From the NCBI GenBank assembly GCA_022843265.1, contig JALHNZ010000017.1, forward strand, positions 1 through 48,185: a stretch of 48,185 nucleotides of DNA, written 5' to 3'. A program made the position numbers and the translations under genes. The notes under the pieces were generated by a model, which did no database searches, was not told where the DNA came from, and saw only the letters and a list, made by a program, of their open reading frames with translations. Source of the stretch: Gemmatimonadaceae bacterium. Lineage in GTDB: Bacteria > Gemmatimonadota > Gemmatimonadetes > Gemmatimonadales > Gemmatimonadaceae. Of the stretch, positions 19,950-46,890 are shown piece by piece. Positions within the stretch are counted from its first letter, which is position 1. The number at the start of each line of letters is the position of its first letter.

Positions 19950-21374
19950 TCAGAACTGAAAATAGATGAAGACCTGGGGGGTTCCCGGCACAAACGCAAT
20001 CATCATCAAAATGAAGTACACATACAAGGCTGCCTGCACCACAATCGGCTGACTGAGTAGCGCCAACTGATCCCCTTTGCGCTCGAGCCACAATTCATAG
20101 GTTTGATACGGAAGGACAAAAAACGCAATCATCGCGGCAGCATAGCTCACAAACGGAGCGTTCCACCCATCGAAGGAGCCGAGCGTTGCGATCATGCCAA
20201 CTGCCTGGCCAATATTTTCGGCACGAAAGAAAATCCACGTGACGCACACGATGTGAAAGAAAACAAACGCTCTAAGCACAGTGAGCAATCGTGCCTGCGC
20301 TCCCGCTGCCTGAGGGGAGACACCGAGTCGGGGATACACTCGGTAAATGATCAGTACGAAGCCATGCAACGCGCCCCACGCGATGTAGGTCCAGTTGGCG
20401 CCATGCCAGAGACCGCCGAGCAACATGGTGAGCGACAGGTTGCGTGCGGTCGCGAATTTTCCGTGCCGATTGCCGCCGAGCGGGATGTACAGGTAGTCGC
20501 GCAGCCAGCTCGAGAGGCTGATGTGCCACCGTTGCCAGAAATCGCTCGGCGATACGGCAAAGTAGGGCATGCGGAAGTTCCACATGAGCTTGAAGCCCAG
20601 CATGCGCGCCAGGCCCTGCGCGATCGACGAGTAGCCTGAGAAATCGCCGTAGATCTGAAACGCAAATGCGTATGCGCCGATCAGCACTTCCGCGGCCGTC
20701 AGCTCGGCGAGTGATTGCGAGAAGATCGAGTTTGCAAGGACCGCCATGTTGTCGGCCACCACAACTTTCTTGAACAGGCCAAACACAATGTGGTACAGCC
20801 CTTCCCGCACATCACCCTTCGTAACAGTGCGCGGGTTTTCTACCTGTGGAAGCAGGTCGGTCGAGCGCTCAATCGGACCGGCAACAAGCTGCGGAAAGAA
20901 CGAGACGTAGAGCGCAAAGTCGAAGATCGAACGCGCCGGAATGGTCTGGCGCCGGTACACATCAACCGTATAACTGATGGTCTGAAACGTGTAAAACGAA
21001 ATACCCACCGGAAGCACGATCTTCAGCATGGGCAGGTAGCCGTTGAGCCCAACGCTCAGCAGCAGATCGTTCATTTCGTTCGCAAAAAAGCCGTAATACT
21101 TGAAAAAGCCTAACAGCGTGAGATTGACGGCTAGCGAGACTCGGAGCAGCAGTTTTCGCTTGTTTTCTTCCGTGATGTTGTGGAGCCAGCGGGCCACGTA
21201 AAAATCAGTAACCGTGGAAAACAACATCAGGAACAGAAAGCGCCAGTCCCACCAGCCGTAAAAAACGTAGCTCGCCACGAGCAACAACCGATTCTGCGCC
21301 TTATGGCCCGAGAACCGGTACGCCGTGAGCACCACAGCAAAAAACACCCAGAATACGAAACTGTTAAATAGCAT
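19950..21374 (-). CDS. MBOAT family O-acyltransferase (AlgI/DltB-like)
   Basis: Membrane-bound O-acyltransferase, 474 aa, with about eleven hydrophobic segments. Start MLFNSFVFWVFFAVV is the usual AlgI-type N-terminus. Motifs: FKYYGFFANEMN, LPVGISFYTFQTISYTVDVYR, FFPQLVAGPIERSTDLLPQ, DFSGYSSIAQGLARMLGF, SDFWQRWHISLSSWLRDYLYIPLGGNR and LLGGLWHGANWTYIAWGALHG, where the His of LWHG (near residue 321) is the conserved catalytic residue. In alginate and related systems this protein passes acyl groups across the membrane for polymer O-acetylation. The gene upstream in the operon (SGNH-like) is the expected partner that transfers the acyl group in the periplasm. Confidence 0.93.
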   Translation of the reverse strand: MLFNSFVFWVFFAVVLTAYRFSGHKAQNRLLLVASYVFYGWWDWRFLFLMLFSTVTDFYVARWLHNITEENKRKLLLRVSLAVNLTLLGFFKYYGFFANEMNDLLLSVGLNGYLPMLKIVLPVGISFYTFQTISYTVDVYRRQTIPARSIFDFALYVSFFPQLVAGPIERSTDLLPQVENPRTVTKGDVREGLYHIVFGLFKKVVVADNMAVLANSIFSQSLAELTAAEVLIGAYAFAFQIYGDFSGYSSIAQGLARMLGFKLMWNFRMPYFAVSPSDFWQRWHISLSSWLRDYLYIPLGGNRHGKFATARNLSLTMLLGGLWHGANWTYIAWGALHGFVLIIYRVYPRLGVSPQAAGAQARLLTVLRAFVFFHIVCVTWIFFRAENIGQAVGMIATLGSFDGWNAPFVSYAAAMIAFFVLPYQTYELWLERKGDQLALLSQPIVVQAALYVYFILMMIAFVPGTPQVFIYFQF

Positions 21375-21395
21375 CTGTTCGCGATCGAGACTGGG

Positions 21396-22379
21396 TCAGT
21401 TGAGGCAGGGCGATTGCTTGGGGCTTTTGCCCGCCAACTGTGCCGCGAGCACGGTCGAAAGCCTGCGTGCTCCCTCGTCGTTCAGATGGATTGCGTCCCG
21501 GTAAAGTGCCGGGTCGGGCGGCACGGCGGTGCGCAGATCAAGGAACAGGTCGTTGGGCCCGAGGATATCGCAGATGGCGCGATCAATCTGGTATGGCGCC
21601 TGCACTGGCATGGCAACGAGCACGGCGCTGGTGCCGACGCCGCCCAGCTCGCCGAGGAGCGCGGCGGCGGCGCGATAGTGCACGGCGGTTGCGCCTGCTG
21701 TGTTTGACGCAACAGGTGCCGTCTGGCGGGCATTATTCCGTTCATTCAGTTGCTGCGTCTCCGCTTCGTAGTGCGGAATGATGCGCGAGAAGATTTTCTG
21801 CCGAATAGGTTCGCGGTGAGTAAACAATTTTGATGTCGTTACCGCCGCTACGTCGAGCCAAGTTTCCGTTTCAACACTGGGGGAAAATTGGCTGAAGTAC
21901 GCAAGTTTTGCCGGCGGGCAAAGATTGTTGAAGTTGCGTCGGAGGTTCAGCGTGGCCACATCCGACAGCTGATCCCACGCAAAGCCAATGATCACGCGAT
22001 CAGCTGGCGGCGTTCGGGAAATCAGGTGAGTTTCCACGACGCATGTCCAATCCCAGATGGTTGAATTGTCAGGGGCGAGTTTAACTACCAGAGGTGTGTC
22101 CCCCGCTGGCGTCAGTGCTGCCGTGAGGACGACTGAGTCGATGCCGCGGTCGATAAGCGAACTTCCCACCGCGGCCAGTAGCGGTTGCCCCGGATTGGCG
22201 CTCGTCTGCCGCATGACCTCAAGGAAACGCTGCTTATTGGCAACATCGCCTGAGAGGCGTGCTTCGGCGCTACGAACGAAGAGATCAAGGCCAACCACGC
22301 AGGCCAGCGCGAGCAGCAGTGCGGCGGTGACGTTGCGGTATCGTGTTGGTCCGGTGCTGTCGTTTGGCGCAGCGCTCAT
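21396..22379 (-). CDS. SGNH-like membrane-anchored protein, probable MBOAT partner
   Basis: 327 aa. One N-terminal transmembrane helix (AALLLALACVVGLDLFV, about residues 17-33) places the rest in the periplasm. LLAAVGSSLIDRGIDSVVL holds a GSS in place of the GDS serine block, and DAIHLNDEGARRLS near the C-terminus gives the D-x-x-H of the SGNH hydrolase/acyltransferase fold. Length and topology resemble AlgJ/AlgX-type or DltD-like partners of MBOAT proteins. It overlaps the ABC transporter stop by 4 bases (ATGA) and is followed by the MBOAT gene after 21 bases, so it likely completes polymer O-acylation with it. The overall sequence is divergent, so exact family assignment is uncertain. Confidence 0.72.
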   Translation of the reverse strand: MSAAPNDSTGPTRYRNVTAALLLALACVVGLDLFVRSAEARLSGDVANKQRFLEVMRQTSANPGQPLLAAVGSSLIDRGIDSVVLTAALTPAGDTPLVVKLAPDNSTIWDWTCVVETHLISRTPPADRVIIGFAWDQLSDVATLNLRRNFNNLCPPAKLAYFSQFSPSVETETWLDVAAVTTSKLFTHREPIRQKIFSRIIPHYEAETQQLNERNNARQTAPVASNTAGATAVHYRAAAALLGELGGVGTSAVLVAMPVQAPYQIDRAICDILGPNDLFLDLRTAVPPDPALYRDAIHLNDEGARRLSTVLAAQLAGKSPKQSPCLN

Positions 22380-26816: not shown

Positions 26817-28019
26817 ATGTCAGACGAATCGGGCAAGACTTCCTTACGTACGCACGAGACGGGGCGTAGCGGGCGCCGCTTGGCGGCTCTCGATGCTTTA
26901 CGGGGCATCGCCGCGGTGGCGGTTGTATTCTTTCATCTGGAGGGGGCGTTCTTGAGAGCCCCTCAGCCTTGGATGCCCGGGTGGCTGTCCACTTTGTTTC
27001 AGCACGGGCACCTTGGCGTCAATATTTTTTTTGCGATCAGTGGCTTCGTCATCGCGATGTCCGTGAAGCATGAGGCGGACAGCTGGGCGTACGCTGGACG
27101 CTTTACGATCAGGAGATCAATACGACTGGATCCGCCGATGTGGATGGCGATCGCCGTTGAAATGGCGCTGATTTTTGTGGGGTTGAAGTACATGGGCAAC
27201 GTGAGTTCGGCCGAATTGCCCTCCGTGCCTCAGGTGTTGACCAACATGGTCTATCTACAGGAGTTTTTCGGCTACGCCCACATAAGCCCCGTTTTCTGGA
27301 CGCTCTGCTACGAAATACAATTCTACTTGACGTTCGTTTTCGTCTTGGTGCTTGGCGCAAAGTTCAGCGATTTAACTACGAAGTCGGCGGGATCGTCAGC
27401 TGTTTTCATAATGTTCACCGCACTCTTCGTCGCGTCATTGCTGGCTTCAGCTGGCCTTATTAGTTCGCCGCCACGCGGTGTTGGCCTCCACCGGTGGAAC
27501 GAGTTTTTTCTAGGCGCGCTAACATACTGGGTGTGCACGAGAAGAACTCGACCGTGGATGCTCGTAGTTGGCACTTCAATGGTCGTGGCGGCTACATTGC
27601 ACACTGGCAGAGCGCTCGAAGCAACCATTCTGATCATCACTTGTCTTACGTGCGCGTTGAGCTATCTCAGGCCCTCGTTCGACGCGCTCGCCAACGCAAA
27701 AGTCTGGCAGCGCTTGGGGCTTATATCGTATAGCGTGTACCTGTATCACGGTTCTTTGGGGTATCGCACCGTATCTCTAGGCCAGCATTTCCTGGGTTCA
27801 ACACTAAGCTCAGTGACTGGCCCGCTCTTGTGGGTTTTCTCGCTCGGGGTAGCGGTGGGCGGATCCGCTATTCTGTGGTACTTCGTGGAACGACCGACGG
27901 TGACGTGGTCTCGTCAAATCTCGTTGAAGCCTGCTCCGACAACGCGCCTGTCGACGAAACAATCGACGTTCGCCGTTTCGGCCCAAACTGATGACGTCGA
28001 ATCTTTCCAAGCTCCCTAA
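26817..28019 (+). CDS. Acyltransferase 3 family membrane protein
   Basis: Integral membrane acyltransferase, 400 aa from the ATG at 26817. The frame extends to 26643, but the added 58 residues have no hydrophobic or family character. Motifs: RRLAALDALRGIAAVAVVFFHLEG (start helix with the conserved R and H), GHLGVNIFFAISGFVIAMSV (the F-F-x-x-SGF motif), FTIRRSIRLDPPMWM (R-x-x-R-x-x-P), ISPVFWTLCYEIQFYLTF, and a final YSVYLYHGSLGYR helix. Family members move acetyl or other acyl groups onto sugars of O-antigen and exopolysaccharide. About 100 bases downstream come the ACP and MaoC-SDR genes, which suggests a non-acetyl acyl donor. Base composition looks lower in GC than neighbours. Confidence 0.87.
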   Translation: MSDESGKTSLRTHETGRSGRRLAALDALRGIAAVAVVFFHLEGAFLRAPQPWMPGWLSTLFQHGHLGVNIFFAISGFVIAMSVKHEADSWAYAGRFTIRRSIRLDPPMWMAIAVEMALIFVGLKYMGNVSSAELPSVPQVLTNMVYLQEFFGYAHISPVFWTLCYEIQFYLTFVFVLVLGAKFSDLTTKSAGSSAVFIMFTALFVASLLASAGLISSPPRGVGLHRWNEFFLGALTYWVCTRRTRPWMLVVGTSMVVAATLHTGRALEATILIITCLTCALSYLRPSFDALANAKVWQRLGLISYSVYLYHGSLGYRTVSLGQHFLGSTLSSVTGPLLWVFSLGVAVGGSAILWYFVERPTVTWSRQISLKPAPTTRLSTKQSTFAVSAQTDDVESFQAP

Positions 28020-28122
28020 CCTGTGAACGGAGATATTGTGCTTCGCCGCTGACGCTTTGGGCATTGTCAACTTAGCGAATTTTGCGACTTTGAATTTCGA
28101 CTTACAGCCACTCCCACCTCGC

Positions 28123-28362
28123 ATGACAAAGGATTTCGAACCTTCACTTCAGCTTATCTTTCAGGCGGTCCTTGAACTCGATGCGGGGACCGATGCATCA
28201 GAGATTCGCCAGCTTACGTTCCCCCGATGGGATTCACTGGCACACGTGTCACTGATCTCGGCGATCGAAAGTGAGTTCGGCATTGAGATCGACGTGAACG
28301 ACCAGCTCGAACTCACGTCATTCGCGATGATGCTCGAGTATCTCAAGGAAAACGTGCGGTGA
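28123..28362 (+). CDS. Dedicated acyl carrier protein
   Basis: 79 aa, acidic four-helix carrier protein. The start ATG at 28123 gives MTKDFEPSLQLIFQAVLEL; the frame is open further upstream but without ACP character. FPRWDSLAHVSLISAIESEF contains the DSL phosphopantetheine attachment site, serine 38. The sequence FGIEIDVNDQLELTSFAMM then follows, as in ACPs for special acyl pathways. Its stop overlaps the GTG of the MaoC-SDR gene (GTGA), so the two are translationally coupled. With FkbH, MaoC-SDR and two acyltransferases nearby it is probably the carrier for a polysaccharide acyl group, not the general fatty-acid ACP, which usually sits with fab genes. Confidence 0.88.
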   Translation: MTKDFEPSLQLIFQAVLELDAGTDASEIRQLTFPRWDSLAHVSLISAIESEFGIEIDVNDQLELTSFAMMLEYLKENVR

Positions 28363-29462
28363 CTTCCGCGTCGTTCGAAGTCGAAGTCACCGATTCGTCG
28401 GCCACCCAGTTTGCTGAGCTGTCCGGCGACTGGAACCCGCTGCATACCGACGTTGAGTACGCGGCCCGAAGCTCGTACGGAAAGCGCGTGTTACACGGCG
28501 CCTTCTCCGCCGGCCTCGTCTCCCGCATGGCAGGAATGCACGTGCCCGGTACGGCATGCCTGTTGCACGGCATCCAGCTGCGTTTTGTCGCACCCATTCT
28601 CCCGCCGGCGCGCCTGCTGGTGCATGGACAGCTGAGCCGCGGTAGTATGGAGCAGGGCGTCGTTGACGTTACAGTTGTCGACGCCGCCAGCGGTATGCGT
28701 TACGTGGAAGGCTCGTACTCCTTTGGGCTGCACGATACGCCCGACAACTCCGCGCCAGCCTCAGCACTGGCGAGCCCCCCAGAAGCGGAGCAACACCTCG
28801 AGGCGGTGGTGCTCGTGACAGGAGCCAATGGCGCGTTAGGATCGGCCGTACTCGCCAGTCTTGGTGCGCGAGCACTGGGAGTAAGCAGGCACGCTGGCAC
28901 CTCCGGGATTTTGGTTCCGGATCTTGCCGAGATCTCGCAAGCAGTGGGCGCGCGAAAGCTTGCTGGCGTGGTACACTGCGCCTGGCCGCCTCCTGACAAC
29001 ACACGATTGGTAGACTTGCAAGCGGCAGCAGCGCCCGTTGATCACTACGTTGGTGCGCCCCTCAGGCAGGTGCTCGCGCTCGCACAACTGCTCAAAACCA
29101 ACGGAACGGCGGGCGCACCGCTGATTCTCGTGGGATCGACTGCGGCGATGCCCGGACGGCACAACTATCGAATGCCGTTGTACTCGCTCGGCAAAGCGCT
29201 GGTGCCCGAACTCACGCGCATGCTCGCACTGGAGCTCGCCCCTACAGGCGGCCGCTGTCTGTCGGCGATTTTCGACGTGCTGGATGGTGGAATGAATGCA
29301 CAGATGCCCAAGACGGCTCGCCTGGCGCACATGAATCGCATTCCGGCAGGACGCATCGCGACAACCGACGAGGCGGCACAACAGCTTGTGTGGATGCTCG
29401 ACAATGCAAGCCACCTGGCAACTGGAGCGGTGATATCGCTATCGGGCGGCGCAATGCCGTGA
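28359..29462 (+). CDS. MaoC-like hydratase fused to short-chain dehydrogenase
   Basis: 367 aa with two domains. Residues 1-~125 form a hotdog-fold (R)-enoyl hydratase: SGDWNPLHTDVEYA carries the Asp and His of the hydratase active site, SYGKRVLHGAFSAGLVS follows. Residues ~148-367 form an SDR: VVLVTGANGALGSAV (TGxxGxxG cofactor site), LILVGSTAAMPGR (Ser) and YSLGKALVPELTRMLALELA (YxxxK), ending TGAVISLSGGAMP. The start is a GTG at 28359 overlapping the ACP stop. The pair of activities would interconvert enoyl-, 3-hydroxy- and 3-keto-acyl thioesters, most simply on the neighbouring ACP. It ends 6 bases from the convergent FkbH gene. Substrate chain length is unknown. Confidence 0.82.
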   Translation: MTSASFEVEVTDSSATQFAELSGDWNPLHTDVEYAARSSYGKRVLHGAFSAGLVSRMAGMHVPGTACLLHGIQLRFVAPILPPARLLVHGQLSRGSMEQGVVDVTVVDAASGMRYVEGSYSFGLHDTPDNSAPASALASPPEAEQHLEAVVLVTGANGALGSAVLASLGARALGVSRHAGTSGILVPDLAEISQAVGARKLAGVVHCAWPPPDNTRLVDLQAAAAPVDHYVGAPLRQVLALAQLLKTNGTAGAPLILVGSTAAMPGRHNYRMPLYSLGKALVPELTRMLALELAPTGGRCLSAIFDVLDGGMNAQMPKTARLAHMNRIPAGRIATTDEAAQQLVWMLDNASHLATGAVISLSGGAMP

Positions 29463-29468
29463 GCGGCG

Positions 29469-31106
29469 CTACAGCGCTTCGGACAAATCGAAGAGGCTCA
29501 GGTCGTTGGCGAAGCGTTCCCGGCATGAGGCCACATCCAGCGTAACAACGCCTTCGTCTGGCTCCCGCCCAAGACACTCCACGAGAAAGCGTCGCGTTGG
29601 TTCATTTTTTTCTGTTACGGCATACTCAATGCTGGCGACTGCCGCATTCTGACGCAGCAGCCATGCGAGAAACGCAAACTCGACGCGGCGCTGAAATACG
29701 CGGCAGGACATGACGAGCGCGCGAACGATACCCCCGCCATCAACCAGCGCCACCAGAATCTCGCCGTGCTCTCCCGTGCGATCACTCAGCGTAACGCCGT
29801 ACAGTTTACCACCCGCGTCCAGTGTCGCTTGCACTTCTTCGCTGGTAAAACGACGGCCGTTCGCGTTGAACTGGTTGGTTTTGTTCAAGAGCTGCACAGC
29901 GCGCGCGCGATCACCGGTTGATCGATCGGCGATGACCAGCGTCATGTTCAGCTCGCGCAGGAACAGTGTGAGATCCGCGCCCGCGACATTGCTCGGCGCC
30001 ATACCCTCCAATCGGCGCCTGTACATTTGCGTGCGCTGCTGGTCCTCCGCCGTTACGCTGTTGCGGCGAAAGTGATGCGCAAGCGCGTCGAGCAATGCGG
30101 GAAGCTCTGAGGCGGAATCCGGAAACCTCAAACACGTGACTTGCGGCAGTTCGCGCGCAACTTCTGCCAACTCGACCGGATTGTCGTCTACAAACACAAA
30201 CGCATCCAGTCCAAGATTAAGCTGCTCTGCCAGCAGTTTGATTTGCGCGGACTTGGCATTCCACGACGCCAGGATTGCCACAAAGTCTTCTTCTTTCAGC
30301 ACCATTTCTCCGCTCTGAAATGGTGCCAGCGCGGTGCTTGCATCGTTCTTGGATACGGCCGCCAGCAGCACGCCTGCCTCGCGAAGCCGACGCAGCATTG
30401 TCTGATAAATGAAATGCTGGTAGCCCTTGCCTTCGGCGCGATGCGAGATTCCCTGCAATCCATCGTCACCAATAATTCCCGACCAGAGTGTCTGATCGAG
30501 ATCCGTAACAACGACTTTTCCCACGGCTGTTTCGCGGCTACGGACACGGCGCACTATGCACTCCGCCACCGTGCCCAAGGCACCACCACCAAACGGTGCG
30601 CCAGACGCGATGTACGTGCCCAGCGAAAAAAGCTCGCGAGGCAGTACGACCGCCCGCGCTGAACGCGCCATTGATTCGAGCATTCCTTCAAATGCGGCAT
30701 TGCGCTCTGATTCGATCCAGAGCGGAGGACATGGTGCGGGTACAAAAACGATGTGGCCGCCCCGCGCCGTTACGCGACCAAGAAATGATTCCACCTGTGG
30801 CAGCAGATCAGATTCGCTCTTAGCTGCGCCCGATGTAACACCGGTACGCCAGTCCATCTCGGGCACCAAGTCCCATGGAAAGAGCAGGAATACCTCGGCC
30901 ATTTCAGACGGCACCGCACTCACGACTGTCTGCTGCAGCGTATTAAACGGCAGAAACTGCGTTTCAGCTTGCCATCCCTGCTTTGCCGCAGCCGCGCGCA
31001 GGTACAGCGTGAGGGTGTCCGGCGTTCCCGACATGGCAAGTCGGAATGGAATTGTTGTTCCGCCAGAGAACTCTCGCAGAATTCGCGTGGCCTCAAGAAA
31101 GTTCAC
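29469..31106 (-). CDS. FkbH-like HAD-IIIC phosphatase/acyltransferase
   Basis: 545 aa from a GTG at 31106. FkbH-type proteins dephosphorylate 1,3-bisphosphoglycerate and load glyceryl onto an ACP in polyketide pathways; relatives occur in polysaccharide loci with unproven substrates. The N-terminal ~190 residues are an FkbH-specific domain. GKVVVTDLDQTLWSGIIGDDG (near residue 200) is the HAD motif I with DxD; AAVSKNDASTA is motif II; FVFVDDNPVELAEV is motif IV. The C-terminal third (LTLFLRELNMTLVIAD ... LLNKTNQFNANGRRF) matches the end of FkbH proteins and resembles a GNAT fold. It is last in a minus-strand operon and faces the ACP gene tail to tail. Loading of that ACP is the simplest role. 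Confidence 0.88.
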   Translation of the reverse strand: MNFLEATRILREFSGGTTIPFRLAMSGTPDTLTLYLRAAAAKQGWQAETQFLPFNTLQQTVVSAVPSEMAEVFLLFPWDLVPEMDWRTGVTSGAAKSESDLLPQVESFLGRVTARGGHIVFVPAPCPPLWIESERNAAFEGMLESMARSARAVVLPRELFSLGTYIASGAPFGGGALGTVAECIVRRVRSRETAVGKVVVTDLDQTLWSGIIGDDGLQGISHRAEGKGYQHFIYQTMLRRLREAGVLLAAVSKNDASTALAPFQSGEMVLKEEDFVAILASWNAKSAQIKLLAEQLNLGLDAFVFVDDNPVELAEVARELPQVTCLRFPDSASELPALLDALAHHFRRNSVTAEDQQRTQMYRRRLEGMAPSNVAGADLTLFLRELNMTLVIADRSTGDRARAVQLLNKTNQFNANGRRFTSEEVQATLDAGGKLYGVTLSDRTGEHGEILVALVDGGGIVRALVMSCRVFQRRVEFAFLAWLLRQNAAVASIEYAVTEKNEPTRRFLVECLGREPDEGVVTLDVASCRERFANDLSLFDLSEAL

Positions 31107-31158
31107 GAGTGCGACTCACCAGAAAAGTTTGATCTACGACGTATGCGTGTGACAAGCT

Positions 31159-32316
31159 TCAAAAAGTAGCATCCGATTCACCATCACCGCGCGCAAGCCA
31201 CCATTCACCAAGCGTTAACGGCCAACCCGGCTCCGCCTCGTTTCGCTTGAGAAAAAAATGTACGTTACCGGCAAAGTTCAGAAAGCCTCGTCTACGCAGA
31301 TGTTTACGCGTCGATTCATGAGGGATGCTGCACAAAATCGCATCGCTTCCCATTGCCCGGGCTGCCTTTTCGGCGGTAGCCAACAGTGCGTTTAAGGTAC
31401 CCGCGTCGGAAGGCCGCACGATCAGATCCGATAGACTGCAAACACGAACGCCACCGAGTCGTTCGTCGCCCGAGCCGCGCGGGCGCTTGAGAATGGCGAG
31501 CCCGCTAAGTTGATGCGCAGCGTCGTGGATGGTGGCAAAACTGTAGTCGGAGTTTCGCGATCCATTGCCGTAGCGTGCCAAAACTGCTGCACTATCTCTG
31601 ACGATCGCACCACGTAGCTCTGTGCGCGTGTCTCGCCACAGTGCATCGACGGCTTCCGGATCGAGCGTGGCCTCAATCGCTGCATGAAAGCGCCGCGACA
31701 CGCGTGGCATGCCAAGCCGAATGGGGACATCTGCCATCGCTCCGATCGCACCGGCGAGGCCTGCCTGCTGCGAGAAACCGAGCGCCTTTGCGACTGCGCG
31801 TGGAACGCCCGCTTGCGCGGCGCGGGCAGTGTCCAATCGTGGCAGCGTATCACGGAGCGACAGCGGTCGAATCGCGTTAGGCAACGCTCCCCAATCGGTG
31901 TAGCCGAGTGCTGCAAACAAACGGCGAGACGCGGGATTCACTGTTAGCGCACCAATCAGCGGCTCGGAGTTGCTCAGCGCACGCAGCACATGAAAGCCAA
32001 TTGGGCCGTTGCGGAATTCCGACAGAACCCAGAGACCTTTTGCCAGATACGCCGGAACTTCTGCACTGCCATTCCATAACCGAATGCTCAACGTGCTGCA
32101 GTATCCGATGACCCGATCACCCTGAAGCGCCACGAAGGTCGGCAGGGGGCGCCCGGGTTCGGCCAGGTTGCCTGCTGCGGCTGTGGTGATTCCCTCACAC
32201 ACGGATTCCGGAGTACTGCTCGATCCCCAATTTTGATTAAAGAACTCGGCCATACCCTGGGCATGCTCGGGCGTTGCCGGAATAACGCGCACGCGATTGG
32301 ACACCGCCTGCGTCAC
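31159..32316 (-). CDS. GNAT-family acyltransferase (probably two GNAT-like halves)
   Basis: 385 aa. Start chosen at the GTG at 32316: it overlaps the GT2 stop in a GTGA and has AAGGAG six bases upstream; the frame stays open to 32595 only because it overlaps GT2. The first half has VRVIPATPEHAQGMAEFFNQNWG and FVALQGDRVIGYCSTLSIRLW, LWVLSEFRNGPIGFHVLRAL and NPASRRLFAALGY, a GNAT core. The second half repeats a weaker pattern (LSGLAILKRP, DLIVRPSDAGTLNALLATAEKAA, STRKHLRRRGFLNF). Such proteins in polysaccharide loci often acylate amino sugars, here perhaps from the acyl-ACP of the neighbouring module. It lies 52 bases upstream of FkbH. Confidence 0.75.
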   Translation of the reverse strand: MTQAVSNRVRVIPATPEHAQGMAEFFNQNWGSSSTPESVCEGITTAAAGNLAEPGRPLPTFVALQGDRVIGYCSTLSIRLWNGSAEVPAYLAKGLWVLSEFRNGPIGFHVLRALSNSEPLIGALTVNPASRRLFAALGYTDWGALPNAIRPLSLRDTLPRLDTARAAQAGVPRAVAKALGFSQQAGLAGAIGAMADVPIRLGMPRVSRRFHAAIEATLDPEAVDALWRDTRTELRGAIVRDSAAVLARYGNGSRNSDYSFATIHDAAHQLSGLAILKRPRGSGDERLGGVRVCSLSDLIVRPSDAGTLNALLATAEKAARAMGSDAILCSIPHESTRKHLRRRGFLNFAGNVHFFLKRNEAEPGWPLTLGEWWLARGDGESDATF

Positions 32317-33518
32317 GCCTGACTCCTTGAGTTCACCGTGGGCAGTTCGGTCGCTGGACGTTTGGTTGGTTCCCATGTTGCGAGCTTCTCCCCTTTCAGG
32401 AGCTGCAGCCAGGCGAGCCAGCCCGCCACGATGCTCACAAAAATGTAGCCCGGAAACGCGACCAGTTTTGGCAGGCGTTTGTCGTCGGGCCATGTGAGCG
32501 TGAGGCGTGCCAACGCCAGCCCGACCAGCATGCCGACCGTGAGCAGCAACGTGTACGGCGCCGCCTTGATGAGCAGCAGTGGCCCAAACACCCATCCCAG
32601 CAAGGCCGGAAAAAGCAGCCAGCGCGCGAGTTTATGCGACGCCATCATGAGCGCGTAGCTGCCGTATTTGAACGGATTCATCATGCCGCGCAGGTAGACG
32701 AGCGTACCAAGTCCGCGCGCCATGGTACGGCTCTTTCGGCGCAGTTCAGCCTTGAGCGTCGGCGTGCGCGGCACGAGACAGGTGGCATCATCGACACTCA
32801 CGGCCCGATAACCGTGCGCGCGCGCCACGCTAGCGGCGGCAAAATCGCGGGAGAGATGCTCCGGCAGTGGCAACGCGTGCAGGTCGCGTCGCGCCGCGTA
32901 AAAGCAGCCACTCGCGCCCACAATACTGTGCACGCGCGTTTCGTACGACCGCAGTGTCATTTCCAGGCCGACATAGCTCGACTCGGCCTTATTTCCCTCG
33001 CGCGCCTCGTCTCCTACACTAATGTCGCGTCCGGAGGCGAGGCCAACGCCAGGCACGAGCAGGGCACGCACCAACGGCTTCAGGGAGTCGCGTGGAATGA
33101 GAATGGAGGCATCGATGCTCACCACGTACTCACCGCGAACATGCGCGCCAGATGCGTTTTCGCCCGCAGGTTTCCCTCGCCTCGATGGCTGCCGCAGTAG
33201 CCGAACGCGCTCATCACCGTAGTTGCGGACGAGGTCATCCGTACCGTCGCTGGAGGCGTCGGAGACGACGAGGATATCCAGCAACTCGGGCGGATAGTCG
33301 ACCGTCAACGCCGTTTCGATCGTGCGCCGCAGCCGATGCTCCTCGTTGTATGCGACAATCAAAATCGTCACTGCAGGCCAATGCTCCGGCTCAGCGGCGA
33401 GCGTGAACGAAGGCCGGAGGCGCGACCAGATCCATACCAGCGCCGGGTAGATCACAAACGCGTAGACCCCGAGCACCAGCGGTGCGGCAATCAGGATCCT
33501 TCCGATCGCATCGATCAT
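32313..33518 (-). CDS. Membrane glycosyltransferase family 2
   Basis: 401 aa GT-A enzyme with membrane anchors: one N-terminal helix (ILIAAPLVLGVYAFVIYPALVWIW) and three to four helices after residue 290 (LLFPALLGWVFGPLLLI, LLLTVGMLVGLALARL, LVAFPGYIFVSIVAGWL). The catalytic domain shows AVTILIVAYNEEHRLRRTI, LLDILVVSDASSDGT, GEYVVSIDASILIP (D-x-S in place of DXD), GASGCFYAARRDL and a KSRTMARGL segment corresponding to the Q/R-x-x-R-W region. This layout fits processive or polyprenyl-linked sugar transferases. It is coupled by 4-base overlaps to the acyltransferase upstream and the GNAT gene downstream, so sugar transfer and acylation are likely sequential. Confidence 0.87.
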   Translation of the reverse strand: MIDAIGRILIAAPLVLGVYAFVIYPALVWIWSRLRPSFTLAAEPEHWPAVTILIVAYNEEHRLRRTIETALTVDYPPELLDILVVSDASSDGTDDLVRNYGDERVRLLRQPSRRGKPAGENASGAHVRGEYVVSIDASILIPRDSLKPLVRALLVPGVGLASGRDISVGDEAREGNKAESSYVGLEMTLRSYETRVHSIVGASGCFYAARRDLHALPLPEHLSRDFAAASVARAHGYRAVSVDDATCLVPRTPTLKAELRRKSRTMARGLGTLVYLRGMMNPFKYGSYALMMASHKLARWLLFPALLGWVFGPLLLIKAAPYTLLLTVGMLVGLALARLTLTWPDDKRLPKLVAFPGYIFVSIVAGWLAWLQLLKGEKLATWEPTKRPATELPTVNSRSQA

Positions 33519-34651
33519 CGAGATATCTCTCCGCCACCCTCAGTGGGCGTCACAAATGAACCCTGTTTTGCTTTCGCACCCCTAGGGAGTGCAGAAAGAA
33601 GCGGAAGTGTGTCCAGGATACCTGCGAGCAATCGCCGCACTGGGCCCGTCCCTAACCTCATAGCCACGTAAGCCGCGCAAATCGAGAAAATAGTGGCAGA
33701 AAGAACCAACGCAGGCGTGCCGCCTGAAGCCGAACAGCGGAGGAATAGCTCCTTTCCGGTATTGTGCAGCAGATACAATGGATAGGTGAGTGAGCCGATT
33801 GTTGCAGCCACCGCAACAGAAAGCCGCAGCTTTACTCTGCCAACGACGGCGACGCTGATCAAGGCGAACGCGACACAAACTATGCCCACCGTAGAGAAAC
33901 GTGCGATATCCGTAATGTCGCTCGAATCCATAAAACCCTGCATGGCACGTACAGCGTGATAGGAGCTCAGCACCAACGCAAGAGCGATCGCTGCTATTCT
34001 GCGAGCACTCCATCCCGACTCATAAACCAGAAAGAATATCCCGCCTGCCGCGAATAGAGCACCGTACGGAAATATGATGAGGGACCGCACCACTGCGCCG
34101 GTATCAGTCACGCTGGAAACGGCCAGCGTAAATATCCACGCGTAGATCCACGCTTCAATCCGTCGCATCTGACCGAGCGCAAGCAGCGTCCACGTGATTA
34201 CGTAGAACTTGATTTCCACTCCAAGCGTCCAATAAACATCGTCTACGTACTCTGCGCCGAGATACTGTGGCACCATGGTCAGATTCAGCAAGATCGCTTT
34301 TAGCGTAAGCGAATCTCCGAAGCCGCCTGGGGCCCGCGTGAAGATCAGCGCCGAAATGACCACTGAAATCCAAAACTCCGGGTAGAGTCTGAGCAACCGC
34401 GCCCGAACGAACGAGCGGGGCTGTCGACCGCGTGCGCTCCAGAGGATCACAAACCCGCTGATAATGAAAAACAGGTGCACACCTAGGTAGCCGTGCTTTA
34501 CAACTGGTTGCCATGCCACTAACCATGGCTGCGGCTCTCGAACGGCTATATAAGTAAAGTGATAAACCATCACCGCGGCGGCTGCTAAAAAACGAAGCAG
34601 ATCCAGAGCAACAAATCTCGGGTTAGCCGTATCTTTGATTGCGGCAATCAT
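33515..34651 (-). CDS. Acyltransferase 3 family membrane protein
   Basis: Second acyltransferase-3 protein of the acyl module, 378 aa from the ATG at 34651; a GTG at 34762 would add 37 polar residues that look like leader sequence. Motifs: NPRFVALDLLRFLAAAAVMVYHF (R and catalytic H in the first helix), GYLGVHLFFIISGFVILWSA, SFVRARLLRLYPEFWIS (R-x-x-R-LYP), VYWTLGVEIKFYVITW, and SLTYPLYLLHNTGKELF near the end. About ten membrane helices. It begins the minus-strand run acyltransferase-GT2-GNAT-FkbH, joined by 4-base overlaps. Like the gene at 26817 it appears poorer in GC than its neighbours. Confidence 0.88.
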   Translation of the reverse strand: MIAAIKDTANPRFVALDLLRFLAAAAVMVYHFTYIAVREPQPWLVAWQPVVKHGYLGVHLFFIISGFVILWSARGRQPRSFVRARLLRLYPEFWISVVISALIFTRAPGGFGDSLTLKAILLNLTMVPQYLGAEYVDDVYWTLGVEIKFYVITWTLLALGQMRRIEAWIYAWIFTLAVSSVTDTGAVVRSLIIFPYGALFAAGGIFFLVYESGWSARRIAAIALALVLSSYHAVRAMQGFMDSSDITDIARFSTVGIVCVAFALISVAVVGRVKLRLSVAVAATIGSLTYPLYLLHNTGKELFLRCSASGGTPALVLSATIFSICAAYVAMRLGTGPVRRLLAGILDTLPLLSALPRGAKAKQGSFVTPTEGGGEISR

Positions 34652-34798
34652 CACAATTGGACCAGGTTCGCGGAGGAGTAGGAACTCCGAGCCGCCATAA
34701 GTTGCCCTGACTCTTGGACTAGGATTCTCATTCAGGTACAGGACGCGGGTCTGGAAAAGCACGCAACAATGACGAACAGCCTTTGCTAGATTAAGTTA

Positions 34799-38792: not shown

Positions 38793-40085
38793 TCATCCAT
38801 TTTCGCCTGTGACGGAACGCACAATTCTTACCCTGTCATGCTCTCGCAAAAGACCATGGGTGGGCAGCGTGTGCAAGGTACCAGCGAGCTCTGTGGCGCC
38901 AGGCATGGGCGATTTCACACTTAATACTGCATTAATCGCGGGATAGTCACTCAGGGTGCGTGGATATGACCGTGCCACACCGAGTGGGGCGAGAGGATCC
39001 GCTCGCCCTGTTTTAATACGCAACGGATATCTCAGGGCGCCGCTCACACAGCCGCCCAAGTTGGCCACGCGCAGCGCATGGTGGTCGGACAACTCCCGCT
39101 CATACCAATCCTCATTGCGCTGTCTCTCCTGAAGAGCCGCTGGCTCAGCCGCAAGCGTCGCCACCAACAGCGCTGCCGTCGCCGCATGCATTGCCCTTGG
39201 CGGCTGCGGTGCATGGTAACGAGTTTCTCCAAGAGCGAGAGCCGGAATATTCCTCGGGATCGAATACAGCATGGGATTCGATAACACGCTTGCCGCAGCC
39301 GCTGCGAGCAACTGTTTACCGGCTGGCGAAGCCGGCGCCAGCGTGAACGAATACTCACCTTGAACCGAGGAGTCCCACAGCAAGGCACCGCCTCCACCCG
39401 CATTCAGGCCCTTGCCTCTGCCGAAGCTGAGCACGGACAGCGGCGCCAGTGCGCCACCGCGTACTCCCCGCAGCGTGGCACCCGCGTGTTGCGCCGCATC
39501 TTCAATTACTACTGAACCAAACTCCGACGCGATGTTGCTCACAGCCTGAACATCAACAAGGCGTCCGAACAAGTGCGCCGCTACCACGTGAGTAGCTCCC
39601 GCCTTGAGCGCACGCACCAGTGACGAGTAGTCTGGCTGCAAGGTTAAGGGGTCAACGTCATAGAGCTGCGCAGCAAATCCTGCTCCGATTGTTGCCGAGC
39701 CGAGGTCTGGGCAGCAATAGGCGGGGAGCGCGACGCACGGCCGCCCCACACCGTCACGTGTGGCGGTCAGCGCCAGCTGGAGGGCAGTGGTACCGCTAGC
39801 CACCAGCAGTAGCTCACGGTTGGGATACAGCCTTTTCAGGGCGAGCTGCGCCTGATCGAGGGCGGAAGCCGCATGCTGGTGCGTAAGGGCGCGAACAGCC
39901 GAGCGAAGCGCCGCCGCAGGCAGCGCCGTATGCACGGGGGGGTAGGAGCGCCAGGCTGGCATATAATCCGGAAAATGTTTTACGAGAACATGCAATCTCT
40001 TCGCACGGCGTACACTTGACAATGCGCTACGCAAAAGGTTGCGTGACAAGTGTTTACTGCGTCCTTTACCTGATGTCTTTTCCAT
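38793..40085 (-). CDS. DegT/DnrJ/EryC1-type PLP aminotransferase
   Basis: About 430 aa; ATG at 40085 chosen, because further upstream the frame overlaps the divergent ATP-grasp gene; an ATG at 39962 (MPAWRSYPPVH) is also possible. LLLVASGTTALQLALTATRDG is the cofactor phosphate-binding loop, HVVAAHLFGRLVDVQAV and VVIEDAAQHAGATL give the Asp-x-Ala-x-x-x-Gly type block that contacts the PLP ring. The lysine expected for the Schiff base is in the segment FGRGKGLNAGGGGAL. These enzymes make amino sugars from keto-sugar nucleotides. The C-terminal part is divergent from typical sugar aminotransferases, so the substrate may be unusual. Confidence 0.8.
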   Translation of the reverse strand: MEKTSGKGRSKHLSRNLLRSALSSVRRAKRLHVLVKHFPDYMPAWRSYPPVHTALPAAALRSAVRALTHQHAASALDQAQLALKRLYPNRELLLVASGTTALQLALTATRDGVGRPCVALPAYCCPDLGSATIGAGFAAQLYDVDPLTLQPDYSSLVRALKAGATHVVAAHLFGRLVDVQAVSNIASEFGSVVIEDAAQHAGATLRGVRGGALAPLSVLSFGRGKGLNAGGGGALLWDSSVQGEYSFTLAPASPAGKQLLAAAAASVLSNPMLYSIPRNIPALALGETRYHAPQPPRAMHAATAALLVATLAAEPAALQERQRNEDWYERELSDHHALRVANLGGCVSGALRYPLRIKTGRADPLAPLGVARSYPRTLSDYPAINAVLSVKSPMPGATELAGTLHTLPTHGLLREHDRVRIVRSVTGENG

Positions 40086-40119
40086 TGAGTCGTCCCCGTC
40101 CCGCCGGACATCGGCAGCC

Positions 40120-41292
40120 GTGGCTGTTGTCCTCGTAACTGATCCTGAGCAACGCGCGTCTCTCGCGGCGGTGCGTTCAATCGCGCGTGCGGGCCACCGA
40201 GTGCTCACGATCGGTTCATCGGTTGGTCTGGCCGGCGTATCGCGCGCTGTTTCGCGGCACGTTGCAATCCCGAAGCCAGTCGCGGGGGAGTCTGAGCCGT
40301 TTACGCAGGCGGTATCTCACGCAGTTTGGGAGCACGGTGTTCAGGTTGTGATTCCGGTTACCGATTTCGCATCGCGCGTTTTGCTTGGGCGAGACGACAG
40401 GATCGGCGCTCCCGTCGCTGGGCCAAGCGCAGCAGCATATGCGCGAGCGAGTGACAAGGCGTCATTGTTGCGGATAGCGGAGCGACTCGGAGTTCGCGTT
40501 CCCCGACAGCAGGTGTTGAGTGCCCGCGGAGAAGCGCTGGCACTGCACGCAGAACTTGCGGTGGTGGTAAAGCCTGCTCGGTCGGAAGTGTCGATCAATG
40601 GGCGGTCGCTGAAGATGGGTGTTGCGTTCGCGGTTGGCGAGGAAGAAACGCAACGTGCCGTAGCGGCGTACCCTGACGCGGCGTATCCGCTCCTCGTGCA
40701 GGAGCGAACGGTCGGCGACGGTGTTGGTGTGTTTTTGTTGCGCAGTGCAGGAGTAACGCTCCTCTCGTTTGCGCACAGGCGCCTTCGAGAGAAGCCGCCT
40801 GCTGGTGGCGTGAGTACGTATCGTGAGGCCATTGCGGTGCCAGAAAAGCTCGGTGCACAGTGCGAACGGCTGCTGGAGGAGCTGAACTATTCAGGTGCCG
40901 CGATGTTGGAGTTCAAAGAGGATCAGCAGACAGGTGAGTATGTGTTGATGGAGATCAACGCCCGATTGTGGGGTTCGTTACAACTCGCCGTTGATGCTGG
41001 TGTAGACTTTCCAAGCGCGCTTGTAGCGATGTGCTTGGGTGAGCCGTTCCCGCGATCTACACCGCTCGTTGGAGTACGTACGGCATGGGAGTTCGGCGAA
41101 ATCGATCATGCATTGGCTTTGGCTCGTCGGAGCAGAGAAACGCTGCACTTGCCCGCCGGGATGGAGGCAGGTTTGGGCGCGGCGTTGCGTGCGCTCGTTT
41201 CTCGCCGGTTGAGTGATCGCGCTGAAGTGTTCCGCTGGTCCGACCCTCGCCCGTTTTTCAGGGAAGCACGGTTATGGCTCACTCGGAGTTAG
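40120..41292 (+). CDS. ATP-grasp domain protein (ligase)
   Basis: 390 aa from a GTG at 40120 (first strand VAVVLVTDPEQRASLAAVRS). The frame is open to a TTG at 40039, but that part overlaps the divergent aminotransferase. An N-terminal Rossmann-like domain is followed by the ATP-grasp: SDKASLLRIAERLGVRVPRQ, ELAVVVKPARSEV, PLLVQERTVGDGVGVFLLRSAG, then SGAAMLEFKEDQQTGEYVLMEINARLWGSLQLAVDAGVDFP with the metal-binding E and N. Enzymes of this type form amide or ester bonds between a carboxylate and an amine. In a polysaccharide locus it may attach an amino acid to a sugar acid. It is followed by the ligase/polymerase after 25 bases. Confidence 0.85.
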   Translation: MAVVLVTDPEQRASLAAVRSIARAGHRVLTIGSSVGLAGVSRAVSRHVAIPKPVAGESEPFTQAVSHAVWEHGVQVVIPVTDFASRVLLGRDDRIGAPVAGPSAAAYARASDKASLLRIAERLGVRVPRQQVLSARGEALALHAELAVVVKPARSEVSINGRSLKMGVAFAVGEEETQRAVAAYPDAAYPLLVQERTVGDGVGVFLLRSAGVTLLSFAHRRLREKPPAGGVSTYREAIAVPEKLGAQCERLLEELNYSGAAMLEFKEDQQTGEYVLMEINARLWGSLQLAVDAGVDFPSALVAMCLGEPFPRSTPLVGVRTAWEFGEIDHALALARRSRETLHLPAGMEAGLGAALRALVSRRLSDRAEVFRWSDPRPFFREARLWLTRS

Positions 41293-41317: not shown

Positions 41318-42745
41318 ATGGAAGTAGCGAGTCCAGCGGCGGAGCCGGCCCACCGGCCCCTGCGACGTCAGCGTGCGGGCAAGCCCGCGGAGCTAGCTGC
41401 AAAGGACCTGACGCTTAGGTCGTTCTGGAACGGGCTCAAGGCTGAGTCGATCGGACTGATTTTGCTGTGCGTGTACATGACATTTGAGTATGTACGTCCG
41501 CAGCAGATGTATTCGTTCATTGATGTGCTGCCGTGGGGCTTGATCAGCATTGTGCTGTGCACGATCAGCGCCGCAGTCAGTCAAGGCCGCTCACACGGCC
41601 TGAACTTTCTCGATGTGCTGTGCGGGATCTTCCTTATCGTGTTGGCGCTCTCCATGGTCACTGCATATGACCCGGCGGCCGCGATTGCCTCGTGGCTAAC
41701 GGTAGCATCTACCGTAATGCTGTTTTTTTGCGTGCGCTCGATACTGTCGACGGCAAACCGCATTCTCATTTTTACTATTTGTTTCGCGATTATCAACCTT
41801 AAGTTCTCTCAGTACAGCGCCAGAGCATTTTTATCAGGCCGTTACGGGTCTAAAGGCGCGGGCTGGTTCTCAAACTCCGGAGAACTGGCAATGCAAATGG
41901 GCGTTGCGTTTTTCCTGAGCCTTTGTGTTTTGCTTGCTCTGCGCCCGTACGTTGCACAGCGCTGGCGTTGGTGGTTATTGATGGCACTGTTCCCTGGAAC
42001 GGCTTTGCTCGCAGTTCTAGGATCGGCGTCGCGTGCGAGTCAACTGGGGCTGGCTGTTGCAGCCACGCTGATGTTGATCAAACCACCGCAACTACTCCGA
42101 AAAATTGTGAGTTTGTCGGTACTTGTGGCCTTGGTCGCTGTGCTCTTGCCTGAATCCCAAAAGGAGCGATTCCGGTCAGCGGGTGAGGACGACACTTCCA
42201 AATCCAGACTTGCGTATTTCGAAATTGGCAAGACGATTGTTCGAGACAATCCCCAAGGTATTGGTTATGCAAACTGGCGCAGTTACTACAGCACGTACCA
42301 CTGGGATACCTCAGTTTTTTCGAGGATCGAAGTAAGTCATAACAGCTACATCGATGCATTCGCCGAGCTGGGTTATCACGGCGGAGGTTTATTCGTGATT
42401 CTGCTACTCGCATCGTTTGGCATGAACCTCAAAACGCAGCTTCGCCTCAAGCGGAGAGAAGACGTTTCGAGTATCGTGACACGCGGTGTAGCTCGCGGAT
42501 TAAACTTAGGTTTACTCTCAACATGCATCGCAGCGTACTTCATGTCGGTGCTCTACTACCCTGTTTTTTGGCTGGGATTTGCGATGACGTCGGCGGCCTA
42601 TCAGGTATCAAGAAGCCTGGTTCAGGGCCAAGCTGATTTCCGAGTCAGGAAAGATGGTCGTTCCGTGGCGCCGCGAAGCGCGCTGCGTGCTGTGAGTGCG
42701 CGACCCGTACAGCGCTTTGGCCCGGATCCTCGGATTGCGAGCTAA
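41318..42745 (+). CDS. O-antigen ligase/polymerase (Wzy/WaaL-like)
   Basis: 475 aa with about eleven hydrophobic helices. The Wzy_C-type core is visible: LGSASRASQLGLAVAATLML near residue 240 and, after a large periplasmic loop, SRIEVSHNSYIDAFAELGYHGG (the HN-x-Y block with conserved His) followed by a helix. The loop contains SRLAYFEIGKTIVRDNPQGIGYANW, usual for this group. FEYVRPQQMYSFIDVLPWG in the first third resembles exopolysaccharide-type members (sometimes annotated in exosortase loci). It would polymerise lipid-linked repeats or ligate them to an acceptor. The C-terminal 50 residues are arginine-rich and cytoplasmic. Stop TAA overlaps the next ATG. Confidence 0.88.
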   Translation: MEVASPAAEPAHRPLRRQRAGKPAELAAKDLTLRSFWNGLKAESIGLILLCVYMTFEYVRPQQMYSFIDVLPWGLISIVLCTISAAVSQGRSHGLNFLDVLCGIFLIVLALSMVTAYDPAAAIASWLTVASTVMLFFCVRSILSTANRILIFTICFAIINLKFSQYSARAFLSGRYGSKGAGWFSNSGELAMQMGVAFFLSLCVLLALRPYVAQRWRWWLLMALFPGTALLAVLGSASRASQLGLAVAATLMLIKPPQLLRKIVSLSVLVALVAVLLPESQKERFRSAGEDDTSKSRLAYFEIGKTIVRDNPQGIGYANWRSYYSTYHWDTSVFSRIEVSHNSYIDAFAELGYHGGGLFVILLLASFGMNLKTQLRLKRREDVSSIVTRGVARGLNLGLLSTCIAAYFMSVLYYPVFWLGFAMTSAAYQVSRSLVQGQADFRVRKDGRSVAPRSALRAVSARPVQRFGPDPRIAS

Positions 42746-43671
42746 TGTTTCCTAACGGCGCCGAGTTTGCATTTACCATTCTGGATGACACAGATGACAC
42801 GACACTGGTTAACGGTCCACCGGTGTACGAGTTGTTGCGCGCGAATGGGCTTCGTACGACAAAAACCGTCTGGACCGTTGATGTGCCTCCCGAACGCCGG
42901 GGGATTTTTCACGCCGGGGAAACTCTCGCCACTCCAGGCTATCGGGAATGGGTAGGGCAACTCCAGCGCGCAGGCTTTGAGATCGCGTTTCACAACGCCG
43001 CAATGTCGTCGTCAACACGAGATACAACGATTCGTGCACTCGACGAACTGCGGGAGCTCTTAGGGGATCAGGTTCGTCTGCACTGCAACCACGGTCAGAA
43101 CCGGGAAAATCTGTTTTGGGGAGCGGCCCGGTATCAATCATTGCCCTTCAACTTGCTAGCGCGACTGCGAGGTGGCGAGTGGCGAAGAAGTGCATATGAG
43201 GGAGAACTCGTAGGCTCACCGTACTACTGGGCAGACGTTGCCAACGAGACGTTTGCCTATATCCGCAGCATGGCATTTCAAATACTCGATTGCTCGGAAA
43301 TCCAGCCAGAACGCCCGTTCCGCGACCTCGCCAAGCTCTCGAAGCCAGTGTTTTTCAACACTGCCGATGCCCCAGACTGCACCGCATTCAATCGCCTAGT
43401 TAACAAGCAGTCCATCAACGAGCTGCATCGCAATGGCGGGTGGTCTATCGTGTCCACACACATCGGCAAGGGCTTCTGTACACACGGGCAAGTTGATGCG
43501 CAATTCGCTGAAACAATCCGATACCTTGCCCAACTGCCGGGGTGGTTCGTGCCCGCTAGCGAGCTTCTGGATTTCTTGGTGGATCGTGACGGCTGTGCGC
43601 CGCTTTCTTTTGCCGAGCGGCTTCGCATGGAGGGATTCCACGCAGTTGATCGCCTTAAGGCCCGCAGCTAG
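42745..43671 (+). CDS. Divergent NodB-like deacetylase-fold protein
   Basis: 308 aa, start ATG shares one base with the previous stop. FAFTILDDTDDTTLVN at residue 8 is like the catalytic/metal aspartates of NodB deacetylases (TFDDG), shifted close to the N-terminus. GFEIAFHNAAMSSSTRDT has only the first of the two metal-binding histidines where H-x3-H is expected. CNHGQNRENLFWGAARY and SIVSTHIGKGFCTHGQVDAQF carry further histidines that could complete the site. No signal peptide or membrane segment. Likely a relative of deacetylases with altered active site or substrate. Activity is not established. Its position after the polymerase suggests a late modification or a regulatory role. Confidence 0.6.
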   Translation: MFPNGAEFAFTILDDTDDTTLVNGPPVYELLRANGLRTTKTVWTVDVPPERRGIFHAGETLATPGYREWVGQLQRAGFEIAFHNAAMSSSTRDTTIRALDELRELLGDQVRLHCNHGQNRENLFWGAARYQSLPFNLLARLRGGEWRRSAYEGELVGSPYYWADVANETFAYIRSMAFQILDCSEIQPERPFRDLAKLSKPVFFNTADAPDCTAFNRLVNKQSINELHRNGGWSIVSTHIGKGFCTHGQVDAQFAETIRYLAQLPGWFVPASELLDFLVDRDGCAPLSFAERLRMEGFHAVDRLKARS

Positions 43672-46847: not shown

Positions 46848-46890
46848 AGCGCAACAGTGCTTGATTGTTGTGACTCATACAGGAGTGCGG

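Follow-up and report, generated by a model that had tools for sequence, protein, structure and literature searches.

A conserved ACP, MaoC-SDR and FkbH gene cassette, apparently mobile, may serve sugar N-acylation in a Gemmatimonadaceae exopolysaccharide locus

Introduction

What could genes for acyl carrier protein (ACP) chemistry be doing inside a bacterial polysaccharide locus? The question is raised by the 48,185-nucleotide stretch of Gemmatimonadaceae DNA analyzed here (contig JALHNZ010000017.1, hereafter the window), which comes from a 4.6 Mb genome that is 95% complete. An initial annotation had described a self-contained module at 26817-34651, in which an ACP, a protein fusing MaoC and SDR domains (MaoC-SDR), an FkbH-like protein, a GNAT protein, a membrane GT2 glycosyltransferase and two acyltransferase-3 (AT3) proteins would together make a special acyl group and hand it to a sugar. 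Open reading frame (ORF) calls and family-model searches recover all seven genes. Comparison with other genomes indicates that ACP, MaoC-SDR and FkbH form a real and conserved cassette, found in widely differing bacteria and seemingly transferred among them. We propose that acyl-ACP derived from FkbH is probably used to N-acylate a sugar, in what amounts to an N-acyl swap.

Results

The ACP (28123-28362, + strand, from an ATG at 28123 or a TTG at 28036; PF00550, E 2.4e-5) carries its phosphopantetheine serine in a WDSL motif, and W36-D37-S38 is unchanged in an alignment of 12 relatives. MaoC-SDR (28359-29462, + strand) joins a MaoC domain of the R-hydratase type (PF01575, E 2.5e-17) to a short SDR reductase (PF13561, E 1.8e-12). 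The hydratase-2 motif GDWNPLH is intact in the former, with D24 and H29 conserved, and the latter has the glycine-rich TGANGALG and a conserved S260-Y275-K279 triad. Relatives of the fusion are ~45-59% identical to the window protein, and those nearest to it in the PDB are an (R)-specific enoyl-CoA hydratase and FabG-type SDRs. FkbH (29469-31106, - strand) is a HAD-IIIC protein and a predicted glyceryl loader that scores 234 bits against the TIGR01686 cut-off of 146.65. Family-model searches found no ketosynthase among the module genes of the window, so that the simplest expectation is a three-carbon substrate supplied by FkbH.

Does this gene set exist elsewhere? The MaoC-SDR fusion is present in only 3 of the 288 genomes of the window's order, one of which, in the same family as the window, is a metagenome-assembled genome (MAG) named Gemmatimonas phototrophica (locus L016, genome G182). 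Among 84,980 species genomes scanned, further copies came from Alphaproteobacteria, Magnetococcales, Gammaproteobacteria, an Acidobacteria MAG and a Micavibrio MAG, the last placed in Bdellovibrionota by its label in the FkbH tree. The order that includes Magnetospirillum has it in 7/297 genomes, and the class holding the Magnetococcales MAG in 9/48. Counting one locus per genome, this makes 24 MaoC-SDR loci from several phyla. In all but one of the 24 (L100), the gene directly upstream of MaoC-SDR encodes the ACP, and in all but one (L021) FkbH adjoins the fusion, so that each neighbor is kept in 23 loci. In most of them an ATGA or GTGA holds both the FkbH start and the MaoC-SDR stop. The window is the one locus with FkbH in inverted orientation. 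There, MaoC-SDR ends in CC-GTGA, the same sequence that carries the FkbH start in relatives, which suggests that a rearrangement displaced FkbH. The claim of a self-contained acyl-ACP module is thus borne out for ACP, MaoC-SDR and FkbH, which recur together; the co-occurrence that had been suggested as a check does not extend to the acyltransferase-3 genes. No match to MaoC-SDR was found in plasmids at E 1e-40 and none in viral contigs, where it might have been cargo.

Chance association of the three genes was also considered, and is ruled out by their joint recurrence across phyla and by co-occurrence statistics.

Two cassettes had features of their own. At L106:6602-7667, MaoC-SDR is split over two frames between an intact ACP and an intact FkbH, through either a frameshift or an assembly error. 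At L019:698-1711, an LnmK-family acyltransferase/decarboxylase (TIGR04098, above cut-off) is divergent from the cassette.

The FkbH proteins of the cassette have the HAD motif DxDx(T/V) and the conserved Cys, with D202, D204 and C468 invariant in 10 members. Against a model built from ten cassette members they score 636-859 bits (one copy cut by a contig end falls outside this range), while other FkbH proteins of the window's order reach at most ~272. In the tree they make up a clade of 26 rows that spans phyla with support of 100/97. By score and phylogeny, the cassette FkbH is a distinct and supported subfamily, and its cross-phylum clade is consistent with horizontal spread.

Which enzyme would use the acyl group? 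The window encodes a tandem GNAT (31159-32376, - strand) for which Pfam GNAT matches remain sub-threshold; its AlphaFold2 model (pLDDT 84) shows two GNAT folds in tandem. This model matches N-myristoyltransferase over its whole length (Z 22, root-mean-square deviation 4.4, 315 residues), and Foldseek matched it to the clavulanate tandem GNAT 2wpx. Homologues stand in the module loci of the window, L016, L014 and L022, and also in L060-L066, which have no MaoC-SDR. Judged by fold and recurrence, the conserved transferase of the cassette is a GNAT-type protein, this tandem GNAT, which we predict to be an acyl-ACP N-acyltransferase, the use of ACP being drawn from its gene linkage to ACP. Elsewhere an AAC(3) protein takes the place of GNAT as transferase (L017, L018, L020, L021 and L095-L100), and in L017, L018, L020 and L021 a methyltransferase gene comes immediately next.

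A likely further part of the module, beyond the coordinates first annotated, is a protein with a CE4 fold (42745-43671, + strand) that resembles polysaccharide deacetylases and is predicted to free a sugar amine. The protein is not recognised at Pfam thresholds; its model (pLDDT 74) has a NodB-type fold, closest to 3rxz and PuuE (Z 14.2 each) and to ArnD (Z 11.7). The gene lies within ~1.2 kb of FkbH in 7 of 11 genomes. Both families track FkbH in the order: 11 of the 12 genomes with the tandem GNAT, among 288, have FkbH (P ~1e-9), and so do 11 of the 11 with the CE4-fold family (P ~1e-10), these hypergeometric values being uncorrected for relatedness of the genomes.

The neighbours in relatives point to sugars. 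DUF4910 proteins, which resemble sugar de-N-acetylases, are encoded near the cassette in L018, L020 and L095-L098. We take DUF4910 to be the same family as PIRSF015244, also in view of its C. acetobutylicum-type relative 3k9t. PseB-like and PseC-like genes lie near the module in L095, L097 and L098; family models are above cut-off for L097 PseB (522 bits, cut-off 408), L097 PseC (451, cut-off 424) and L098 PseC (461), and the other calls in these three loci follow from the same gene arrangement and from sequence similarity. A NeuB/PseI-type synthase is encoded in L096 (below cut-off) and a WbuX amidotransferase in L025 (above it). None of PseB, PseC, DUF4910 and AAC(3) was recognised in the window. 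The neighbours seen in relatives make it likely that the module hands its acyl group to a sugar, as first suggested. In the window itself, a DegT/DnrJ-type aminotransferase (38793-40208, - strand; best match E 9.5e-16, under the equivalog cut-off) is a possible source of an amino sugar.

The remaining genes of the module fared differently. AT3a (26817-28019, + strand, from an ATG at 26817 in an ORF open from 26643; PF01757, E 3.9e-15), the GT2 glycosyltransferase (32313-33518, - strand; PF00535, E 3.9e-21) and AT3b (33515-34762, - strand; PF01757, E 2.6e-22) share operons with cassette genes, in the order AT3a-ACP-MaoC-SDR on the + strand and AT3b-GT2-GNAT-FkbH on the - strand. The start of AT3b is uncertain and inner starts are possible, including the one at 34651 chosen initially. 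No homologue of the three was found near other module copies; by this gene-neighborhood evidence they fall outside the conserved cassette, the two AT3 proteins are ruled out as members, and their earlier inclusion with GT2 is not supported. The operons had also been described as convergent and overlapping. They are convergent, but abut with 6 nucleotides between their ends; overlaps of 4 to 64 nucleotides occur between several neighbors of the same operon. A promoter and terminator scan gave signal no better than shuffles.

More broadly, the window is an exosortase/XrtA-type polysaccharide locus, with an XrtA deacetylase (TIGR03006) and a FemAB protein (TIGR03019) above cut-off and weaker matches to the O-ligase and amidotransferase families. 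An MBOAT O-acyltransferase adjoining a protein of 327 amino acids (19950-22379) resembles an alginate-type O-acetylation pair. At the locus edge lies an IS30 transposase (46861-48069); in L015, it is followed by genes for PEP-CTERM-like proteins and by two of methionine-synthase type.

Discussion

How might such a cassette modify a surface sugar? FkbH-like proteins of published pathways load glyceryl from 1,3-bisphosphoglycerate onto a standalone ACP (PMC7489565). By family resemblance, the cassette FkbH would take a three-carbon unit from the same metabolite and place glyceryl on its ACP. MaoC, with its D/H pair intact, could then eliminate the 3-hydroxyl of the glyceryl thioester as water to give enol-pyruvyl/pyruvyl-ACP, as its domain chemistry would allow, and SDR would reduce pyruvyl-ACP to lactyl-ACP. 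This core of ACP, MaoC-SDR and FkbH would be served by the adjacent tandem GNAT and, probably, by the CE4-fold protein: the latter would expose the amine of a sugar that bears N-acetyl, and the former would move the acyl group onto this amine from ACP. The product would be an exopolysaccharide, or a sugar precursor of one, in which a small hydroxyacyl group replaces N-acetyl.

Gene content, conserved order, catalytic motifs, predicted folds and co-occurrence support N-acylation, as does the fact that the recurrent partners of the cassette are N-acyltransferases, either tandem GNAT or AAC(3). The confidence expressed above belongs to this general scheme only and does not carry over to lactyl. 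That lactyl is the exact product of MaoC-SDR is a tentative call, based on domain chemistry and on the absence of a ketosynthase. More tentative still is the full picture of a mobile cross-phylum cassette that turns a glycolytic intermediate into lactyl-ACP, from which tandem GNAT replaces the N-acetyl group on a surface polysaccharide sugar.

Several observations weigh against the scheme. GNATs usually use acyl-CoA. In the window the CE4-fold gene lies ~11 kb from the module, and its family departs from the D-H-H metal triad (HxxxH): all 7 of 7 members have HxxxM. With Met in place of the second metal His, deacetylase activity is unsure, and we therefore do not file the protein at 42745-43671 as a classical CE4 enzyme. 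The cassettes of L062-L064 lack MaoC-SDR, and at L060:7049-7130 (G206:C1) only a decayed C-terminal fragment of it (SLTGGALP) stands directly before FkbH, so that the fusion is not essential to the logic of the cassette. L021:9753-13048 reads ACP-MaoC-SDR-AAC(3)-methyltransferase, and FkbH was found nowhere across that genome; the acyl unit may there come from another source. Finally, the product of the C. jejuni pathway compared below is glyceroyl and not lactyl. The L060 remnant and the nesting of MaoC-less cassettes within the FkbH clade show that the MaoC-SDR step was lost at least once, a loss that would alter the acyl group. L060 also has a VOC/glyoxalase-like gene and an ACP-GNAT pair nearby, on the opposite strand.

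The main rival to lactyl is glyceryl with altered stereochemistry. Here the sugar would still be N-acylated, and MaoC-SDR would either set the stereochemistry in an epimerase-like manner or oxidize or reduce the unit with no water lost overall. An FkbH gene and the 'epimerase' gene cj1301 take part in making the glyceroyl amide of C. jejuni, a modification that is absent from strain 12661, which lacks cj1301 (PMC7099621). The methyltransferase beside AAC(3) in L017, L018, L020 and L021 would fit O-methyl glyceroyl. However, MaoC with an intact D/H motif is a hydratase/dehydratase, and its fusion to SDR suggests a two-step dehydration and reduction; we regard glyceryl as possible though rather unlikely. 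A longer 3-hydroxyacyl group such as 3-hydroxybutyryl is less probable again. It would be drawn from fatty acid synthesis intermediates, with MaoC hydrating an enoyl-ACP, SDR reducing a 3-keto group and FkbH reduced to an accessory. The nearest PDB relatives of the fusion fit this chemistry, L021 does without FkbH, and the P. syringae viosamine island yields 3-hydroxybutyryl with an ACP, VioR, VioB and VioS; yet the module has no ketosynthase, FkbH adjoins MaoC-SDR almost throughout, and the sole ketosynthase-type cluster seen in the order, in L068, encodes a MaoC-SDR of another kind (25% identity).

A reading in line with the initial annotation, in which the two membrane AT3 proteins use the acyl-ACP to O-acylate the polysaccharide, draws on the operon structure, which joins AT3a to ACP and MaoC-SDR and AT3b to FkbH. 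It seems improbable to us: no AT3 or GT2 homologue stands near any other copy, where GNAT or AAC(3) N-acyltransferases recur instead, and known AT3 proteins, to our knowledge, use acyl-CoA. That the genes are a small natural-product pathway lying by chance in a polysaccharide locus recalls the polyketide pathways from which FkbH is best known. This is very improbable, as no polyketide synthase or non-ribosomal peptide synthetase genes were seen in the window, and relatives adjoin PseB, PseC, NeuB/PseI-type, WbuX and exosortase exopolysaccharide genes.

N-acylation by way of ACP, the reading we prefer, joins poorly annotated genes (MaoC-SDR, the FkbH subfamily, tandem GNAT, the CE4-fold family, DUF4910 and AAC(3)) in one N-acyl-swap scheme. 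On this view, FkbH chemistry, so far familiar chiefly from polyketides, would serve glycan decoration in several phyla. If lactyl is indeed the product, N-lactyl sugars would have a carrier-protein route of their own, one not described in the literature searched. The cassette also provides a genomic frame for the methylglyceroyl modification of C. jejuni, the enzymology of which the literature surveyed does not settle.

How new is this arrangement? In a literature survey that covered few subscription papers, nothing on FkbH in connection with O-antigen, exopolysaccharide, flagellin or MaoC describes this gene set. Like the cassette, the tetronate and methoxymalonyl pathways (e.g., tetromadurin, PMC7489565) pair FkbH with a standalone ACP; there, separate enzymes (two dehydrogenases or a FabH-like protein) tailor glyceryl-ACP to feed polyketide synthases, whereas the partners in the cassette are MaoC-SDR and GNAT. 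ArnD and CE4 polysaccharide deacetylases have their fold in common with the protein at 42745-43671, but not its Met at the second triad His.

In P. syringae, the viosamine island (vioA, vioB, vioR, vioS, vioM, acp) has an ACP, a reductase, a ketosynthase III and an acyltransferase assigned to an N-3-hydroxybutyryl sugar, and deletion of vioR abolishes the N-hydroxyacyl amino sugar (PMC3927599). The cassettes resemble it in combining ACP, reductase, N-acyltransferase and methyltransferase, probably toward an N-hydroxyacyl amino sugar. The island starts its chain from ketosynthase III and has neither FkbH nor MaoC, whereas the window module has no ketosynthase. A separate cluster at L068:3505-13862 (G207:C28), with a ketosynthase III, its own MaoC-SDR, an SDR, an ACP, a GNAT, a methyltransferase, FkbH, a second ACP, an AMP ligase and genes like sugar ketoisomerases and aminotransferases, resembles a pathway of the viosamine type for an N-hydroxyacyl sugar.

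Closest of all, by published gene descriptions, is C. jejuni. Strain NCTC 11168 was found to contain CMP-7-acetamido-5-(2,3-di-O-methylglyceroyl)amino nonulosonic acid, and there Cj1295, directly after the pseudaminic acid genes Cj1293 and Cj1294, is required for the dimethylglyceroyl modification and was proposed by its authors to strip the C5 N-acetyl before methylglyceroyl addition (PMC3068675). Strain 12664, whose fkbH-domain gene, cj1302, has become a pseudogene, does not have the modification (PMC7099621). The flagellin locus Cj1293-Cj1302 resembles the cassettes in having an FkbH-domain gene and an N-acetyltransferase, Cj1296/7. Presumably, it also holds ACP and methyltransferase genes. 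Cj1295 (PIRSF015244), beside Cj1293/Cj1294, would remove N-acetyl ahead of a glyceroyl-type group, in parallel with the N-acyl swap proposed here, and the Alphaproteobacterial-type relatives L095, L097 and L098 likewise bring together PseB/PseC-type genes, DUF4910, AAC(3), FkbH and ACP. In place of AAC(3) and the Cj1295 family, the window has the tandem GNAT and the CE4-fold protein, and its module lies in an exosortase exopolysaccharide locus instead of a flagellin locus. The initial remark that no described pathway has this set was thus too strong, the toolkit for dimethylglyceroyl-pseudaminic acid being very similar, but it stands for the MaoC-SDR fusion, which is not described for the C. 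jejuni pathway. The likeliest role of the cassette is to exchange the N-acyl group of a surface sugar, much as has been proposed for C. jejuni, with MaoC-SDR contributing one further step.

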